Notes under the pieces: generated by a model | Seen by the model: the letters and a program-made list of their open reading frames with translations, nothing else | Told to the model about the DNA's origin: nothing | The model's database searches: none | Made by a program: the position numbers and the translations under genes | Source of the DNA: Clostridia bacterium | GTDB lineage: Bacteria; Bacillota; Clostridia; Christensenellales; CAG-314 | Length of the DNA: 64,000 nucleotides | NCBI GenBank assembly: GCA_028698585.1 | Contig: JAQVWG010000002.1 | Span: 1-64,000 of the forward strand | Direction: 5' to 3' | In this document: positions 54,522 to 63,063 of the stretch, piece after piece | Numbering within the stretch: position 1 is the first letter of the stretch | How the letters are laid out: every line of letters begins with the position of its first letter

Positions 54522-54575
54522 ATGAATGATACAGTAGAACTATTGGACAACGAAGTAATTGAAGATTTGCAACTG
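54394..54575 (+). repeat. Three partial copies of the trmN6 5' end
   Basis: The true start (ATG 54522, then acagtagaactattggaca) is preceded by copy A at 54402 (acagtagaactaatggata), exactly 120 bases upstream, and copy B from 54452 (ctaatggacaatgatgtaat, like ctattggacaacgaagtaat at 54540). Copy A keeps the ATG but reaches a stop after 17 codons. Confidence 0.88.
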
Positions 54576-55265
54576 GATGGATTGAGAATTATTCAGCAGA
54601 AAAACGGCTACAGATTCACCACAGACGCTGTACTCCTAGCTAATAGCGTACAGGGCGCCAAAGGCAAAACAGTTGTCGAACTAGGCAGCGGAAGCGCTGT
54701 TATCTCTATCCTCGTAGCCCATAAGCAACAGCCTAGATTAATACATGCCGTGGAGTTACAACCTGACCTAGCCCAAATGAGCGCCCGTAGTGTGGAACTG
54801 TGCAAGTTACAAGATATAATCAGCATAATCAACGCCAATATTCAGGGCATTCACAACACAATCGGCAACAATATTGATATAGTTATATGTAACCCACCGT
54901 ACAGAGCAATAGGTAGTGGACTGATGCAGGAGAATGACAGTCTTGCCATATGTCGGCATGAGGTGGCTATAACGCTTGAACAGGTGATAGATAATGCAAG
55001 TAAACTATTACACGATAAAGGCGTTTTCTACCTAGTACACCAGACCCAGAGGCTTGCAGAGATAATAATGCTGTGTAGTAAGTATAACATGGCCGTTAAA
55101 CAGTTGACACCCATTATTGCACGAGAGGGTGAGGAAAGTAAAACCATATTAATAAGAGCAGTCAAAGGTGGCAGAGAGGGTTTAGTTATGAATAGCCCAA
55201 TAGTTGTATTCGACCAGCAAGGCAATTACACGCAAACAATCAATCGCTTATACAGCATAGAGTAA
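54522..55265 (+). CDS. trmN6: TrmN6-like tRNA1(Val) m6A37 methyltransferase
   Basis: A methyltransferase of 247 residues. The first SAM motif is VVELGSGSAVISI near residue 50, and the N6-adenine motif NPPY is at 124-127. The N-terminal DGLRIIQQKNGYRFTTDAVLLANSV block is the mark of the YfiC/TrmN6 family, which methylates A37 of tRNA1(Val). In many Firmicutes this gene is followed directly by rsmI; here rsmI lies about 3.5 kb away, behind two SPFH-like genes. The ribosome binding site is weak (GAGGATACAG). Confidence 0.9.
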   Translation: MNDTVELLDNEVIEDLQLDGLRIIQQKNGYRFTTDAVLLANSVQGAKGKTVVELGSGSAVISILVAHKQQPRLIHAVELQPDLAQMSARSVELCKLQDIISIINANIQGIHNTIGNNIDIVICNPPYRAIGSGLMQENDSLAICRHEVAITLEQVIDNASKLLHDKGVFYLVHQTQRLAEIIMLCSKYNMAVKQLTPIIAREGEESKTILIRAVKGGREGLVMNSPIVVFDQQGNYTQTINRLYSIE

Positions 55266-55510
55266 TCTCGTATATGATACCCTGCGGATAGATAATCGGC
55301 GCTTAATCGCTCTGCATATTATCTCGTACATGCCGTAATAGCAGTTGATTATTGTCACTTATTTTCATAGAAGCGAATCGACCTTGTGTTATATTTCGCA
55401 CAAATAACACAGATTTTCACATAATCAACACACTAGTCTACATATATGGGCTGATAAGAGCTACGAACTTAAGTTTTTATGCTTTTTTGTGTTAGTTTTA
55501 CAAAAGACTA
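55266..55510. other. AT-rich spacer before the SPFH-like cassette
   Basis: About 245 bases with no coding frame and no terminator that I can support; the cassette promoter follows. Confidence 0.5.
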
Positions 55511-55539
55511 TTGACTAAAAAACGGATGTGTGATAACAT
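55511..55539 (+). promoter_or_regulatory. Promoter of the SPFH-like cassette
   Basis: TTGACT (55511-55516) and TAACAT (55534-55539) with a 17-base spacer; a leader of about 145 bases precedes the first start codon. Confidence 0.6.
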
Positions 55540-55688
55540 ATAAAAAAATAATGTACTACTGGTAATGGGGCAATTAGTAATCTTATTATACGTAGTAACC
55601 GACACCACGCCAGATAGCATACCAAAAGGTATTGCTGTTGTTGGTGTTCTAATTGATAAATAAACTTTTATATAAACAGGAGGTTTTT

Positions 55689-56693
55689 ATGTTTAAGAAA
55701 CAGATTATTGAGCCAAAGGGAGCAATGCTTGTGGGGGTACGTACGCTCGATGGCATCAAGAAGAACAGTAGACTAGTCGTTCCTTTCGGCTACGAGGCAT
55801 TATTTATTGCCGGCAACATAAGGGAAATATATCAGCCAGGCGTCTATAATCTAGCACAGAGTGATGACTACGCGTGGGTATACTTTGTTAACAAGGCCAT
55901 CGCAACCACGGAGACGTTCAAGGAAGATAATCTAGGTCTATATCTATTCGACTCCTATCTCAATATGCCCATCGAGGTATGCGTAGAAGGCATGATTTCC
56001 TTCGCAGTCAAGGATACTGAGAAAGTCATAGAGAGTTTTGCCAACGCATCAGAACTCACAGGCAGTGATTTGCTCGCAGCATACAAGCCTGTTGTGTATA
56101 TGGAGATTAAGACGGAGTTGGCTAACCTAATGAAGCCCGAAGAGATTAATATCTTCAATACAGCCCTGTTTATTAAAGATGCATCTCTCAACCTACAGAG
56201 AACGCTTAATGCCATATATGATGCAGTAGGCATCGAAGTGCGTTCCTTCTATATCACAAGCGTTTCCACCACAGAGGCGCTCAAGGATATACTAGATAAG
56301 GAGTATGCAGATATTCAGAGACTCAACATAAGAGATACATATAATAACAACAGGGATATGCTCGCACTATCCTCATATGAGCAGAAGGCAAGGATATATA
56401 AGGAATACGGATTCGCAGGATTGACCGAGGCAGAGAAGGACAGGGAACAAGAGAGAGTAGAGGACCGTGCTAAACTGTATGCAGAGACCAAGTACGAGGA
56501 GGAGCCCAGACCTATCCCAATCAGTCCTATCGCACCTACCAACATCAATAATACCACAGTATATCGCGCACCAGAGGTATGTGTTGAAGAGGATGAGGAT
56601 GGACATTCCTGTGCTTGCCACAGTAATATAGAGGAAGGAGTAGAGAGTTGCCCATTTAGTCTTGACTATGGCGCTAAAAAGGGGGATAAGTAA
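55689..56693 (+). CDS. SPFH/band-7-like protein with Cys/His-rich tail
   Basis: A protein of 334 residues. Residues about 1-210 look like an SPFH (stomatin/prohibitin) domain of the COG4260 type: SRLVVPFGYEALFIAGNIREIYQPGVYNL, then ILNMPIEVCVEGMISFAVKD and a VEVRSFYITSVS end, followed by a coiled, charged region (KARIYKEYGFAGLTEAEKD). The tail near residues 295-321 has clustered Cys and His (GHSCACH, then SCPF), fitting the zinc-ribbon seen in COG4260. No membrane helix is evident. AGGAGG precedes the ATG at 55689; the frame is open from 55653. The stop is two bases ahead of its partner gene. Function is unknown; the fold assignment is by eye. Confidence 0.72.
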   Translation: MFKKQIIEPKGAMLVGVRTLDGIKKNSRLVVPFGYEALFIAGNIREIYQPGVYNLAQSDDYAWVYFVNKAIATTETFKEDNLGLYLFDSYLNMPIEVCVEGMISFAVKDTEKVIESFANASELTGSDLLAAYKPVVYMEIKTELANLMKPEEINIFNTALFIKDASLNLQRTLNAIYDAVGIEVRSFYITSVSTTEALKDILDKEYADIQRLNIRDTYNNNRDMLALSSYEQKARIYKEYGFAGLTEAEKDREQERVEDRAKLYAETKYEEEPRPIPISPIAPTNINNTTVYRAPEVCVEEDEDGHSCACHSNIEEGVESCPFSLDYGAKKGDK

Positions 56694-56695
56694 CA

Positions 56696-58450
56696 ATGTA
56701 TTTAAAGAAGACTAACATACTTGCTCTTCCATACAGGCAGTTCAATGCAGAATTGACCAGAGATAATCAACTGTTCGCCCAACTGGACGAGAATAATTCT
56801 GTACATACTGACAAGTTGGCTGGTGCAGTTGCTTTTCAGACTTCATTTATTGATATCGTACCCTACAGATTACTGACCAACAGAGTGCTAGAGGCATATC
56901 TTGTTGCTAAACTTCAGGAGAGCGAAGCACAAGAGAAGACTATGTGGGAGCAAGAGGTCAGTAAAGAGCAAGAGAAGGCTGTCCAAGTAGACGAGCTAGA
57001 CAATTGTGAGAGTAAGTGCATTAGATACGAGCAGAAGCCCGAACCCAAAAAAGAATGGATACCCATATTCAGTCAATCGTTTAATGGCAGTATCTGTTTG
57101 AGATTCGTGTGCGAGTCTGTATTTGACGGATTTGATGCCGATTTGGGCGCACCTGCAGAATATTATAGTAATTTTGAGGTTAAACTCAAGATAGAGGACT
57201 ATGTCGCATTCCTAGACAACATGGATATTGCGCTGGGCGATATTGATATACGCCACGTTAAAGAAGCCTTTGACAGAATAATCAAGGCTAGAATTGACAA
57301 TATCATCGCAGAATATGTACTATCCAAAAAAGTAAGTTATTTTAAACTGCCGTTGCACTATAAGGTTATCACCGAGCACATCAAGAAGGAAATTGATTTT
57401 GTATCTATGGGCATGAGTTTAACGTACGTTACTATCAATAACATTTCTATACCTGCCAATGTAAGGCGTGCCTTGTTCGAGGAGTACACCAATGTTCGTG
57501 TCAACAAGATAAGAGATGACTATCAGAACAAGTTGGACCAAACAGCGCTCAAATTACATAAACAGAAGGCACTTATCTATAAGGAGACTCAATTCCCAGA
57601 TACATTGACTGAGACTGATAAGGATAGAGCCAACCAGAGATTCATCGATAGAATCAAGAATATGCCCAAGACTATCGAGAGAGAGAAGATAATCAATAAC
57701 GAGATTAGGTATCAACCATACCCAGTCCAATCACAACCAACTGCAATAGGTGTTGAGGACAACAAGGTCGAGTCAGCACAAGAGGAGCATGTTGACGAGT
57801 CTAATAATGTTAAAGAAGCACAAGCAGTCGATAACAAGCCAGAAGACAGGGAAGAGAATGGCGAAGTCTACTATGATGATCGTATAATGCGTAAACAGAG
57901 TGGAGTCTTGGCATTCCTGTGTACGGTGGCTACAGGCGCACTGTTAGGATTTATACTATCCCTCGTATTTACTGAACCCGGTGGCATTCTACTGGCTGTG
58001 TTTATTGCGTTCTGTCTAACAGCAATAGCTTTGATTATTACCATGCCACTCATTAGCAGACATAATGATAAGGTTGAGTTATTAAGTGCAGATTATATAT
58101 CGGTTAAGGATGACCATTTGCCACCCAAGGAGCAGGAGACTGTTAAAATAGGCAAAATGGTTGTTACCAGATATGCAGATGGTCAGGTGCTTAATGTTGA
58201 GCAAAAAAGCAAACAAACAGTTGTTAGAGTCAAGAAAGAGAAGGTTAAGAAATCTAAGGCTTCCAAGAAGAGCAAGAGTAAACCCATTGACGGAGTAGCA
58301 CTGGTACCTGTTACTGAGCAACCTGCTGAATCCGCAGTGCAACCCGAGCCGCAACCTAGTCAACAAGTGCAGTTGCCACAGGATATTCAGCCCGTGCATG
58401 AAGTACAGCCGGTAGAGGTCGAGGCTACAGATAAGAGTCAAGCGGAATAA
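56696..58450 (+). CDS. Membrane-bound SPFH-like partner protein
   Basis: A protein of 584 residues. Residues about 1-300 resemble the preceding protein, with a matching pattern ending in MSLTYVTINNIS and then KALIYKETQFPDTLTETDKD, which mirrors KARIYKEYGFAGLTEAEKD of its neighbour; the two are therefore paralogues. A long acidic linker leads to two membrane helices at about 403-425 and 429-450 (GALLGFILSLVF, ILLAVFIAFCLTAIALIITM). The C-terminal 130 residues are a lysine-rich block followed by a Gln/Pro/Glu-rich tail. It should anchor the pair in the membrane. GGGGGA precedes the ATG. A terminator follows, so the pair forms a two-gene unit. Confidence 0.72.
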   Translation: MYLKKTNILALPYRQFNAELTRDNQLFAQLDENNSVHTDKLAGAVAFQTSFIDIVPYRLLTNRVLEAYLVAKLQESEAQEKTMWEQEVSKEQEKAVQVDELDNCESKCIRYEQKPEPKKEWIPIFSQSFNGSICLRFVCESVFDGFDADLGAPAEYYSNFEVKLKIEDYVAFLDNMDIALGDIDIRHVKEAFDRIIKARIDNIIAEYVLSKKVSYFKLPLHYKVITEHIKKEIDFVSMGMSLTYVTINNISIPANVRRALFEEYTNVRVNKIRDDYQNKLDQTALKLHKQKALIYKETQFPDTLTETDKDRANQRFIDRIKNMPKTIEREKIINNEIRYQPYPVQSQPTAIGVEDNKVESAQEEHVDESNNVKEAQAVDNKPEDREENGEVYYDDRIMRKQSGVLAFLCTVATGALLGFILSLVFTEPGGILLAVFIAFCLTAIALIITMPLISRHNDKVELLSADYISVKDDHLPPKEQETVKIGKMVVTRYADGQVLNVEQKSKQTVVRVKKEKVKKSKASKKSKSKPIDGVALVPVTEQPAESAVQPEPQPSQQVQLPQDIQPVHEVQPVEVEATDKSQAE

Positions 58451-58479
58451 GCTTACATATACCCTAATAATAGTTACAC

Positions 58480-58511
58480 ATTTGCCCTTGTAGCCTATTG
58501 CAAGGGCAAAT
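58480..58511 (+). terminator. Terminator of the SPFH-like cassette
   Basis: Perfect 11-bp inverted repeat atttgcccttg / caagggcaaat with a 10-base loop, 29 bases after the stop. Confidence 0.85.
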
Positions 58512-58848: not shown

Positions 58849-59676
58849 ATGATTCAAGTATATATCGTAGCAACACCCATAGGCAACAGTGCCGAGATAA
58901 CGTACAGGGCAGTACAAGTGCTCAATAGCGTAGATGTCATTTATTGTGAGGACACACGACACTCTGCACCCTTGCTTGCAAGATACGACATTCATAAACC
59001 ACTCAAAGGCTATCATAAGTTTAACGAGAAGAATGCTTGTTCTGGCATATTCGACGAGTTGTCCGACAATAAGACTATAGCAGTAATTACAGACGCTGGT
59101 ATGCCCGCCATTAGTGATCCGGGCAATATACTTGTCAATGCACTCATTGACGCTCAAATTGAGTATACCGTCGTGTCTGGTGCGTCCGCATTTGTCAACG
59201 CATTCGTAATGTCGGGATTTAGCACTCCATTTACATTCATTGGTTTCCTTCCTGATAAGAATATTGACAGGCAACGGTTGTTAGATGGCGTTAATATTAA
59301 TAATACCTTGATTTTTTATTCTGCCGTACACGACGTTATAGAGGACTTGCGCTATCTACATCAAGCGCTGGGTAACAGGAAATGTATGGTAGCAAGGGAA
59401 ATCAGTAAATTATATGAGCAGAGGATATTCGGCACACTGGGAGATATAGATATAGATACCTGTAAAGGTGAGTTTGTAATCGTCGTTGGTAGTTGCGTTG
59501 CAGACAATCAACTATGTTCTCTCTCTGTCGAGCAACATTACAATCACTATATTAATTGTGGATACGATAGGAATCAGGCAATTAAACAGGTTGCAAAGGA
59601 TAGAGGCGTACCCAAGAATACTATTTATAGTTTACTGATTAAGAGCAACACGCAGACTGAAGGAGAGGATATATGA
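58849..59676 (+). CDS. rsmI: 16S rRNA (cytidine1402-2'-O)-methyltransferase RsmI
   Basis: A methyltransferase of 275 residues of the tetrapyrrole-methylase fold. TPIGN is at about residues 9-13, then YCEDTRHSAPLLARYDI and the cofactor segment DAGMPAISDPG near residue 83, and a SGASAFVNAFVMSGF block, all diagnostic for RsmI. It methylates C1402 in the ribosomal P site. The ATG at 58849 gives the normal N-terminus; the earlier ATG at 58798 adds 17 residues. Ribosome binding site is weak (GTGAGG, 13 bases off). It overlaps the next gene by four bases. Confidence 0.92.
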   Translation: MIQVYIVATPIGNSAEITYRAVQVLNSVDVIYCEDTRHSAPLLARYDIHKPLKGYHKFNEKNACSGIFDELSDNKTIAVITDAGMPAISDPGNILVNALIDAQIEYTVVSGASAFVNAFVMSGFSTPFTFIGFLPDKNIDRQRLLDGVNINNTLIFYSAVHDVIEDLRYLHQALGNRKCMVAREISKLYEQRIFGTLGDIDIDTCKGEFVIVVGSCVADNQLCSLSVEQHYNHYINCGYDRNQAIKQVAKDRGVPKNTIYSLLIKSNTQTEGEDI

Positions 59677-60005
59677 AACGAGTGATATTCTTTATTATAC
59701 TAATACTACTGGTGCTATTCAACCTATACTGCATATTACTGGCACCATATATACCGTCAATTAGTGTGTTCGGCAAGACAGACGCAGTAACCATGCAGTT
59801 AACTGGATGTATATCTGCTTTTCTCGCCAGTTTTTTGGCATTCTTTGGTGGATATACCAAAATACTGTCTACTCGCACAGCTAACCGCGTATTGACCGTG
59901 TCGGCAACCATTTATCTATTCATACAACTGCTGTATTTAGTGGTTGTGTTAGTTGCCATTAAATATATTGATGTACTGACGGATTGGTTCACATGGGTAC
60001 GGTAG
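59673..60005 (+). CDS. Small three-helix membrane protein
   Basis: A membrane protein of 110 residues that I do not recognise. Three hydrophobic helices are seen: VIFFIILILLVLFNLYCILL, the ISAFLASFLAFFGGY segment near residue 50, and TIYLFIQLLYLVVVLVAI. A short polar loop joins the first two. The ATG overlaps the rsmI stop as ATGA with GGAGAGG ahead, so it is translationally coupled to rsmI and is a real gene. No conserved motif allows a function. Confidence 0.8.
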   Translation: MKRVIFFIILILLVLFNLYCILLAPYIPSISVFGKTDAVTMQLTGCISAFLASFLAFFGGYTKILSTRTANRVLTVSATIYLFIQLLYLVVVLVAIKYIDVLTDWFTWVR

Positions 60006-60376: not shown

Positions 60377-61000
60377 TCATTTACTGCCATTATTAGTGCT
60401 AGTAAGCAGTTTATCCAGTGTAATATACAGAGTCGGCATCACTTGCTCTATATCATCTTCATCGAATATTCCGTTCATTAACATTCTAAGCGCCTGTATG
60501 CGCTCCTCTCGGTCTTGATTGTTAGCAAAAATGCCCTTACAGTTGACTACCAGAGTTTGAACTTGTCCAACCAACGTATCGAGTGTCAACTGATTGTTGA
60601 GCAGTTTCTCCTTAATGTCTGTTAAATCTAACAGACAGTCGTAAAAAACCTTGAACAAATCATCCTTGAGTAACTGTTTAAGGCTCTTGCCATCAATACT
60701 GCTCCAGAACTTGTACATTGCAGTGGATAGTGCGCCAGAATACATTCCTCTTTGCACGTACTCAATCAATGCACCACCCTTGTTATACAGTTCGCCGTAC
60801 ACTATACTGAGTATTACTGCCACAACGAAAGGGATAAATACGCATGGGTCCAATCTGTGCGACAAGTCAATCACTGTCTTGTTAACAAACAATTTTTTGA
60901 TAATGGCCGTCAGCAGACAACATATTGTTGCTATACATGCGATGTCCCAGTTGCCTGCACTCATATGGTCAAAAATGGTCGGGATTAAGGTGTCAGTCAT
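60377..61000 (-). CDS. Two-helix membrane protein of unknown function
   Basis: A protein of 207 residues that I do not recognise. Two hydrophobic helices lie at about residues 20-35 (IACIATICCLLTAII) and 55-75 (CVFIPFVVAVILSIVYGELY); the remaining two thirds are a soluble, leucine-rich helical domain ending in a polar tail. The layout resembles some phage-derived or mobile-element membrane proteins, but no phage gene is near. AGGAGAT lies eight bases before the minus-strand ATG at 61000; the frame runs eight codons further. Confidence 0.78.
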   Translation of the reverse strand: MTDTLIPTIFDHMSAGNWDIACIATICCLLTAIIKKLFVNKTVIDLSHRLDPCVFIPFVVAVILSIVYGELYNKGGALIEYVQRGMYSGALSTAMYKFWSSIDGKSLKQLLKDDLFKVFYDCLLDLTDIKEKLLNNQLTLDTLVGQVQTLVVNCKGIFANNQDREERIQALRMLMNGIFDEDDIEQVMPTLYITLDKLLTSTNNGSK

Positions 61001-61231
61001 CTTTTTATCTCCTATTTTGTTCAAAAAGGGTGGACAACCCTGAATATTCTAACCACTTTTGCATTATTTTTTTTGCTATGTATCACGCTAGCCATACCAT
61101 TATACCACCATAATCTGTCAAATAACCTATTGACTGCCAAATATTAATACCTACTGCGACATACTCTTATCTCATCTCTGCATGCACTTAATAATATACA
61201 TAATCAGTAGATTAATTCTGTCCAAAAACCG

Positions 61232-61260
61232 TTGACATTTGGTATCGCATTTGCTAACAT
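61232..61260 (+). promoter_or_regulatory. Promoter of the YitT pair
   Basis: TTGACA (61232-61237) and TAACAT (61255-61260) with a 17-base spacer. Transcription would begin only a few bases before the ATG at 61271. Confidence 0.65.
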
Positions 61261-61270
61261 AAGTTGTCCT

Positions 61271-62155
61271 ATGAAAAGAATCAATGTAAAACTGTTAATA
61301 CGTAATTATTTAATGCTCATTATTGGTGCATTCTTGGGTGCGCTGGCAATGTATATTTTTGTGTTACCCAACTATATAGTGCCCGGTGGCGCAAGTGGTA
61401 TAGCGTCCATTCTACAGTACTCCATTGGTTTGCATGCTCAATATGGTCTAATACTGCTTAATATCCCATTACTGGTGCTATCCTGCATTTTTTTGTCACG
61501 GGACTTTGCCATAAAAACTATTGTTGTAACTGTGCTGACATCAGTATTCTTGTCTTTAATAGAACTGGTAAAACTGCCGGTATTCCAAGGGGAAATGCTG
61601 GTATCTGTCGTGTTCGGAGGTGTTATTGGTGGTATTTCGTTAGTGTTCTGCTATGTCGGTGGGGGCAGTTCCGGCGGAACGGAGATAGTAGCACGCTTAA
61701 TTATGAAAAAGAATCCCGAAGTGCAAGAGGGTAAAGTGTTAATCATCTGCAACTTGTTCATTATGACTGCCGGTGGATTCTTTACACAGGCTGAGGGGTA
61801 TGACTTATGGATTGTGGTCTATTCGTTGATATATAGTTATGTGTGCTCCTTCGCTCTTGACAGACTGATGAGTGGATTCGATCCCATTGTCAAGTTTAGC
61901 ATAATTACACGTAAGCCCATCGAAGTATCTCAACAGTTGATGCAGTATCTTAACCGAGGAGTGTCCTCCATAGAGACATATGGTGGCAACGGACAACAGA
62001 CAGATTACTATATGCTGGTAGCGGTAGTGCAGTTTAGACAGGCGCCCATGATTAAGAAATTACTCCAAGACACCGATGCAGATTGTTTCGCATTCACCAC
62101 AGACATAGACTACGTAGTATCCAGACCTGACTTTAATATGAGGTATACCAAATGA
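61271..62155 (+). CDS. YitT-family membrane protein (first of pair)
   Basis: A membrane protein of 294 residues of the YitT/DUF161-DUF2179 family. Five or six helices carry the marks YIVPGGASGIASIL and VGGGSSGGTEIVARLI, and the C-terminal 80 residues form the cytoplasmic DUF2179 domain (PIEVSQQLMQYLNRGVSSIETYGG). The transport substrate of the family is unknown. The frame is open from a TTG at 61232, but that triplet is part of the -35 box, so the ATG at 61271 is used; it lacks a ribosome binding site. It overlaps the second copy by four bases. Confidence 0.92.
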   Translation: MKRINVKLLIRNYLMLIIGAFLGALAMYIFVLPNYIVPGGASGIASILQYSIGLHAQYGLILLNIPLLVLSCIFLSRDFAIKTIVVTVLTSVFLSLIELVKLPVFQGEMLVSVVFGGVIGGISLVFCYVGGGSSGGTEIVARLIMKKNPEVQEGKVLIICNLFIMTAGGFFTQAEGYDLWIVVYSLIYSYVCSFALDRLMSGFDPIVKFSIITRKPIEVSQQLMQYLNRGVSSIETYGGNGQQTDYYMLVAVVQFRQAPMIKKLLQDTDADCFAFTTDIDYVVSRPDFNMRYTK

Positions 62156-63063
62156 ACACGGAAAGAACATTTAGACCAAAATCTTTAATATATACACTGC
62201 TCTCTGCACTATTGCGTGGGGTGGGCGTCCAGTTGTTCCTTATACCTAATGCCTATATACTGGGCGGAGCACTGGGTATTGCCAGTATTATCGAAGTATA
62301 TTTTAGCGACAAAATACCTTTCTTATGGGCATGTTATTTCCTTATCGTTATTAATATACCCTTACTTATTATAGCGAGGTTGAAGATAGGTAAAAAATGG
62401 ACGGTAAGAACAATGGTCAACGTACTGGCAACAGCGCTAGTAATGTGGCTTATTAAGTTTTTTGACGTTGCACAACTACTAGGAACTAATAACAATGAGA
62501 ATGGAGTTCTATTCGCTATTGTGGGTGGCGTGATGAGCGGAATGGCGCTACCTATGATGTTGAGCGTACACGGCTCAACTGGTGGATCAGATGTGTTGGC
62601 TGTCTTGTTCAGGAGGAAGAACAGTAGCGCAGTGGTTATGCGCACCATATTATATATGGATATAGTTATTTCCGCTCTAGGTGCCATAATTCTACTCTCA
62701 TTTGATGTAATGGTATACTCCGTAGTTGCCCTTGTTGCAAGCGAAATTATCGCAGAGATAATGTATAAGGGTTATTCTTCGGCAATTCTGTTGGAGATAG
62801 TGACAGATAAACCGGACCAAATATGTAATGCGTTGATGACTGAGTTGAAACACGGAGTAACTAATGTTAAGGTGAAGGGTATGTACAGTAATACCGATAA
62901 ATCAATGGTGGTCTGTGTTGTATTCAAACGCCAACTTGTTGCTAGTCGTAAACTGATTCGCACTATCGACCCTAACGCATTCGCATATGTACTCAATGTT
63001 AAGGAAGTGGTTGGACTGGGATTCAGGAATAAGGAGGAAGAACTGGAAAAACCAGAAAAATAA
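62152..63063 (+). CDS. YitT-family membrane protein (second of pair)
   Basis: A paralogue of the preceding protein, 303 residues. It has the same helix pattern with PNAYILGGALGIASII and a HGSTGGSDVLAVLF motif in place of the GSSGGTEIV of its partner, and the DUF2179 end (DQICNALMTELKHGVTNVKVKGMY). The start overlaps the stop of the first (ATGA), so the two are made together and may form a heteromer (inference). A C-terminal charged tail ends the protein. Confidence 0.92.
   Translation: MNTERTFRPKSLIYTLLSALLRGVGVQLFLIPNAYILGGALGIASIIEVYFSDKIPFLWACYFLIVINIPLLIIARLKIGKKWTVRTMVNVLATALVMWLIKFFDVAQLLGTNNNENGVLFAIVGGVMSGMALPMMLSVHGSTGGSDVLAVLFRRKNSSAVVMRTILYMDIVISALGAIILLSFDVMVYSVVALVASEIIAEIMYKGYSSAILLEIVTDKPDQICNALMTELKHGVTNVKVKGMYSNTDKSMVVCVVFKRQLVASRKLIRTIDPNAFAYVLNVKEVVGLGFRNKEEELEKPEK

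Follow-up and report, generated by a model that had tools for sequence, protein, structure and literature searches.

What do two SPFH genes do between trmN6 and rsmI, and how might the soluble one of the pair reach the membrane? SPFH proteins of the YdjI type are a common sight in Firmicutes. To our knowledge, the route by which soluble SPFH proteins get to the membrane, and their role in the absence of PspA, have been little studied. The locus discussed here lies in a stretch of 64,000 nucleotides, called the window throughout, from an uncultured gut bacterium of the Clostridia, the assembly of which is 95% complete. Its two genes, both on the plus strand, encode the proteins P1 and P2; their coordinates and those of the surrounding features are compiled in the table.

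P1 and P2 are both SPFH proteins and they are paralogues. BLASTP aligns them with an E-value of 1e-13 and 27% identity across 181 amino acids. The curated cut-off of Pfam Band_7_1 (PF13421), 24 bits, is passed by P1 with 41 bits and by P2 with 26.8 bits, the match of P2 beginning only at position 107 of 211 of the profile. Band_7_1 is likewise matched by every one of the 16 proteins in the P2 alignment, and a profile built from the P2 family together with P1 picks up an archaeal stomatin (E=1.8e-4). A search against NCBIfam yielded only matches far below cut-off. AlphaFold models were built from alignments with relatives, and Foldseek matched the models of both proteins to stomatin, HflK/C, prohibitin, erlin and flotillin. 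The initial annotation, made from the sequence alone, had suspected two SPFH paralogues with a shared motif and had suggested profile and structure checks; the SPFH matches and the structural likeness of the two proteins are in line with it.

P1 is built in the classical way. An SPFH1 and SPFH2 core is followed by a long helix, a motif helix and a disordered tail containing cysteine and histidine; a transmembrane stretch or hydrophobic helix is not seen. The core is modelled with confidence (block means of pLDDT 79-96, residues 21-240), and the model shows SPFH1 strands, SPFH2 helices and strands, the long helix and a second helix starting from the LTEAEKD motif. Against stomatin SPFH domains its TMt is 0.65-0.72, with 0.72 for the mouse domain 4fvg, and human stomatin is matched with E=5.5e-10. 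The tail, of which there is one sequence only, has a pLDDT mostly below 50. Its six residues C298, H306, C308, C310, H311 and C321 form no CxxC pairs; a metal-binding module made of them is putative. The ATG at 55689, preceded by AGGAGG, is taken as the start of P1; a TTG listed at 55653 is less likely.

P2 starts with a helical part, after which come the SPFH core (about 130-300), the motif and a linker. Two hydrophobic helices then form a hairpin (residues about 400-424 and 428-455); beyond it the chain turns basic (about 510-530) and ends in a Gln/Pro-rich tail. The mean pLDDT is 59; the core is modelled confidently, the N-terminal helices and the tail are not. The TMt with the stomatin SPFH domains 4fvj/4fvf is 0.67-0.70. 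Basic residues stand on either side of the membrane hairpin, RIMRKQ ahead of it and SRH behind, so that both ends probably lie in the cytoplasm. One soluble and one anchored SPFH protein, the former with a Cys/His tail, the latter with two helices and a basic, then Gln/Pro-rich end, is what had been read from the letters.

The shared C-terminal motif, KARIYKEYGFAGLTEAEKDREQER / KALIYKETQFPDTLTETDKDRANQR, is diagnostic of P1, P2 and a transmembrane SPFH subfamily. Written as a regular expression, it finds P1, P2 and 12 of the 13 relatives that resemble P2; the 14 SPFH proteins of other kinds taken from the order give no match. Within the motif region the letters IYKE and KDR are common to P1 and P2, while few relatives or none have them, which suggests a common history of this region, be it by duplication or by gene conversion.

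Table. Features of the locus (positions in the window)
Feature	Position	Strand	Remark
trmN6-like small-domain methyltransferase, left flank	54522-55265	+	Pfam MTS PF05175, E=1.2e-9
Left spacer, 423 nt	55266-55688		34% G+C, unique in genome
Possible promoter TTGACT-17-TAACAT	55511-55539	+	TG ahead of second hexamer; weak evidence
Gene 1 (P1), soluble SPFH protein	55689-56693	+	334 aa
P1 C-terminal signature motif	56385-56456	+	residues 233-256
P1 Cys/His tail	56580-56651	+	disordered in model
Gene 2 (P2)	56696-58450	+	584 aa
P2 C-terminal signature motif	57566-57640	+	residues 291-315
P2 two transmembrane helices	57893-58060	+	residues about 400-455, tight loop TEPGG
Hairpin ATTTGCCCTTG...CAAGGGCAAAT, likely transcript end	58480-58511 (about)	+	13 bp, z=-2.96, no U-tract
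rsmI, right flank	58849-59676	+	

Gene 2 begins 2 nt past the stop codon of gene 1, and the two genes are presumably co-transcribed. That the unit has its own promoter and its own terminator, as initially proposed, is no more than plausible. The hairpin behind gene 2 is strong; it lacks a U-tract and is therefore missing from the list of the terminator scan. The candidate promoter matches in 9 of 12 positions, and promoter-like sites occur in the region at chance frequency (16 found versus 14.7 expected). An Rfam search across the region gave a sub-threshold match only. Beyond rsmI follow two small open reading frames without a Pfam match (59673-60005, strongly hydrophobic, and 60377-61024) and a tandem of two genes that overlap and belong to the YitT membrane family (PF02588 with DUF2179; 61232-63063).

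P2 is a member of the transmembrane SPFH subfamily. It groups with it at a support of 99/99 and has its features, i.e., the SPFH2 core, the motif helix and two C-terminal membrane helices. The subfamily is small and unnamed, and was found here in uncultured Clostridia of one order only; its proteins, mostly of 424-468 amino acids, have a helical N-terminus, the SPFH core, the motif and the two membrane helices. When 396 genomes of the order were searched with a profile, scores above 150 bits were confined to the two genes of the window and to eight further genomes with a single such gene each. Everything else was an ordinary YdjI-like SPFH protein below 47 bits, which leaves a sharp gap. Scanning the species collection of GTDB gave 14 subfamily loci, all in uncultured Clostridia-type genomes and many, going by their titles, from samples of animal colon, cecum or rectum. 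At the level of the class, 391 genomes were surveyed with a threshold of E<=1e-20, and the subfamily was detected in the window genome only. It is absent from all family relatives searched, and other families of the order have it. A scan of genome contigs with P1 as single query returned no relative at all.

Directly downstream of the SPFH gene, 7 of the 14 GTDB loci have a gene for a small protein that combines a single membrane helix at its N-terminus with an exported domain of the beta type (L102:10819-11292, L104:1510-2082, L105:1603-2130, L115:2521-2955, L116:8292-8690, L118:3051-3449 and L120:9352-9795). No Pfam family recognises these proteins, and none was found in the window genome. 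The subfamily thereby gains a recurring exported partner in addition to a defined signature motif. Other SPFH genes of the order, likewise divergent, show a neighbourhood of another kind: at L051:1-2211, L055:1-2328 and L048:1126-3616 they are followed by a TIR-domain gene (Pfam TIR_2, E 1.5e-9 to 8.1e-11). In two cases there are weak TPR matches as well, with an apparent N-terminal zinc ribbon. These SPFH and TIR genes are possible defence or signalling pairs.

Two motif-bearing genes occur in the window genome only. In every other genome found, the P2-like gene is single and has no P1-like neighbour; P2 may therefore not need P1 and may be able to work without it. Carried further, this would mean that P1 and P2 share an operon but build separate homo-oligomers, P2 acting alone as in its single-gene relatives. 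An identity of just 27% would fit such independence. The spacing of 2 nt and the motif letters IYKE and KDR, lacking in most relatives, speak against it, and we regard two separate homo-oligomers as rather unlikely. Phylogeny is of little help. The best tree places P1 on the YdjI side on a very long branch, but the AU test rejects neither a position on the P2 side (p=0.358) nor P1 and P2 as sister pair (p=0.117). Because of the long branches, the placement of P1 stays ambiguous.

How did the pair get to its place? In all 28 assessable family relatives, i.e., those in which both genes are readable, trmN6 and rsmI are adjacent. The gap between them has a median of 2 nt and a range of -8 to 408 nt, compared with 3583 nt in the window. 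The trmN6 gene is 42-52% identical to the rsmI-adjoining genes of the relatives, and rsmI 50-61% to the rsmI of most of them. The insertion into a conserved gene pair, as the initial annotation had it, is thus lineage-specific and unique among the relatives tested, a clean case of its kind. In same-family relatives the pair does not sit between trmN6 and rsmI. Neither of the outcomes that would have refuted the initial annotation, a lack of SPFH matches and of structural likeness or a pair fixed at this place in all close relatives, thus came about.

Apart from these two genes, the window genome has no Band_7_1 gene. Among 40 family relatives, 31 have at least one Band_7_1 gene, of other kinds; in 22 of these 31 it is a strong YdjI-like one with about 250 bits or more. 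In one relative (G028) a YdjI-like SPFH gene is broken by an in-frame TAA (L010:1093-2238). Eleven genera of the family were searched, and each of them has Band_7_1 genes. This wide occurrence, together with the native G+C of the inserted genes, the typical codon usage of P2 (that of P1 is somewhat less typical of the window) and the very long branches of both proteins, would be compatible with vertical inheritance of the pair and its rapid divergence in a single genus; the insertion would then reflect a rearrangement within the genome and not an uptake of foreign genes. Yet none of the family relatives searched has a gene of the P2 subfamily, although other families of the order do, which makes this history improbable.

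A mobile origin was looked for in several ways. The flanking genes tested are of metabolic, modification or transport type, and among them are no integrase, transposase or recombinase and no defence gene. Boundary repeats amount to weak, chance-like pairs, the best direct repeats being the DNA of the paralogous motif itself. No homologue turned up in viral contigs (searched with the P2-family profile) or in phage records (searched with P1). Of the PADLOC defence models P1 matches none, and P2 matches only RmrT, weakly and partially (E=0.0016, 16 bits), the match being limited to 76 residues in the SPFH core. In favour of a mobile cassette with defence cargo are the absence of the insertion from all 28 assessable relatives, the patchy distribution of the P2 subfamily and the TIR-domain genes beside some other SPFH genes of the order. 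Against it stand the results just given, the host-like G+C and a left spacer unique in the genome. We consider this reading improbable, and the cargo cassette and phage response of the initial annotation are not supported.

PspA (PF04012) was not found in the window genome, while the controls were positive; as the genome is 95% complete, its lack of PspA or YdjG is to be taken with caution. A zinc-ribbon gene that neighbours the SPFH gene of a relative had no match there either, in a search run without positive control.

We are thus left with a reading to which we give even chances: the lineage-specific operon would be a diverged YdjI-like system, in which the soluble P1 owes its place at the membrane to P2, an SPFH paralogue with an anchor of its own. 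Probably, a membrane-stress scaffold known from bacteria is present here in rewired form. P1 would be the soluble YdjI-like subunit, and P2, with its own C-terminal membrane hairpin, would anchor the complex. The contact might be made via SPFH2, the long helix and the shared motif helix, and the two proteins could assemble into a ring or patch of both subunits on the cytoplasmic side of the membrane. The P1-P2 hetero-oligomer and a role in stress are inferred. P2 alone might then merge the jobs of YdjG and YdjH, the recruiters of soluble YdjI. Since no PspA was found, the output probably differs from that of the Bacillus subtilis pathway; it would be membrane organisation or stabilisation of client proteins under envelope stress rather than recruitment of PspA. 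More tentatively, the pair could be a minimal PspA-free SPFH system, in which a P2-type paralogue has replaced YdjG/H and an asymmetric hetero-oligomer is anchored via every second subunit only. In any case, a compact pair with a built-in anchor is a simple system for testing membrane recruitment of SPFH proteins without PspA.

How does the pair compare with known systems? The closest relatives of P2, the transmembrane SPFH proteins (L100-L107, L109-L122), share its domain order, motif and membrane hairpin. They differ in being encoded by single genes, in half of the GTDB loci followed by the gene of the small exported beta-domain protein; the window genome has neither trait.

HflK/HflC, PHB1/2, erlin1/2 and flotillin 1/2 resemble the pair in that two SPFH paralogues combine an SPFH core with a long helix. 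HflK/C are, like P1/P2, encoded in tandem. In the solved complexes of two SPFH paralogues the two subunits alternate (PMC12624060). HflK and HflC, however, both carry an N-terminal anchor, whereas in the window pair P1 lacks an anchor and P2 has it on the C-terminal side; a link to FtsH was not seen.

Finally, the SPFH protein YdjI of Bacillus subtilis is soluble and carries a zinc finger close to the C-terminal end; both YdjI and PspA reach the membrane via YdjG and YdjH (PMC8581546). PspA belongs to the operon of YdjI (pspA-ydjGHI), while none was found in the window genome. The YdjI-type rows of our alignment carry C-terminal CxxC pairs; P1 has no such zinc ribbons, and it has the KARIYKE...LTEAEKD helix. 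The neighbour of P1 is itself an SPFH protein, that of YdjI is YdjG/YdjH. Like P1, however, YdjI is a soluble Band_7_1 protein with a cysteine-containing C-terminal tail, and it is encoded beside its membrane partners, as P1 is beside its putative one, P2.
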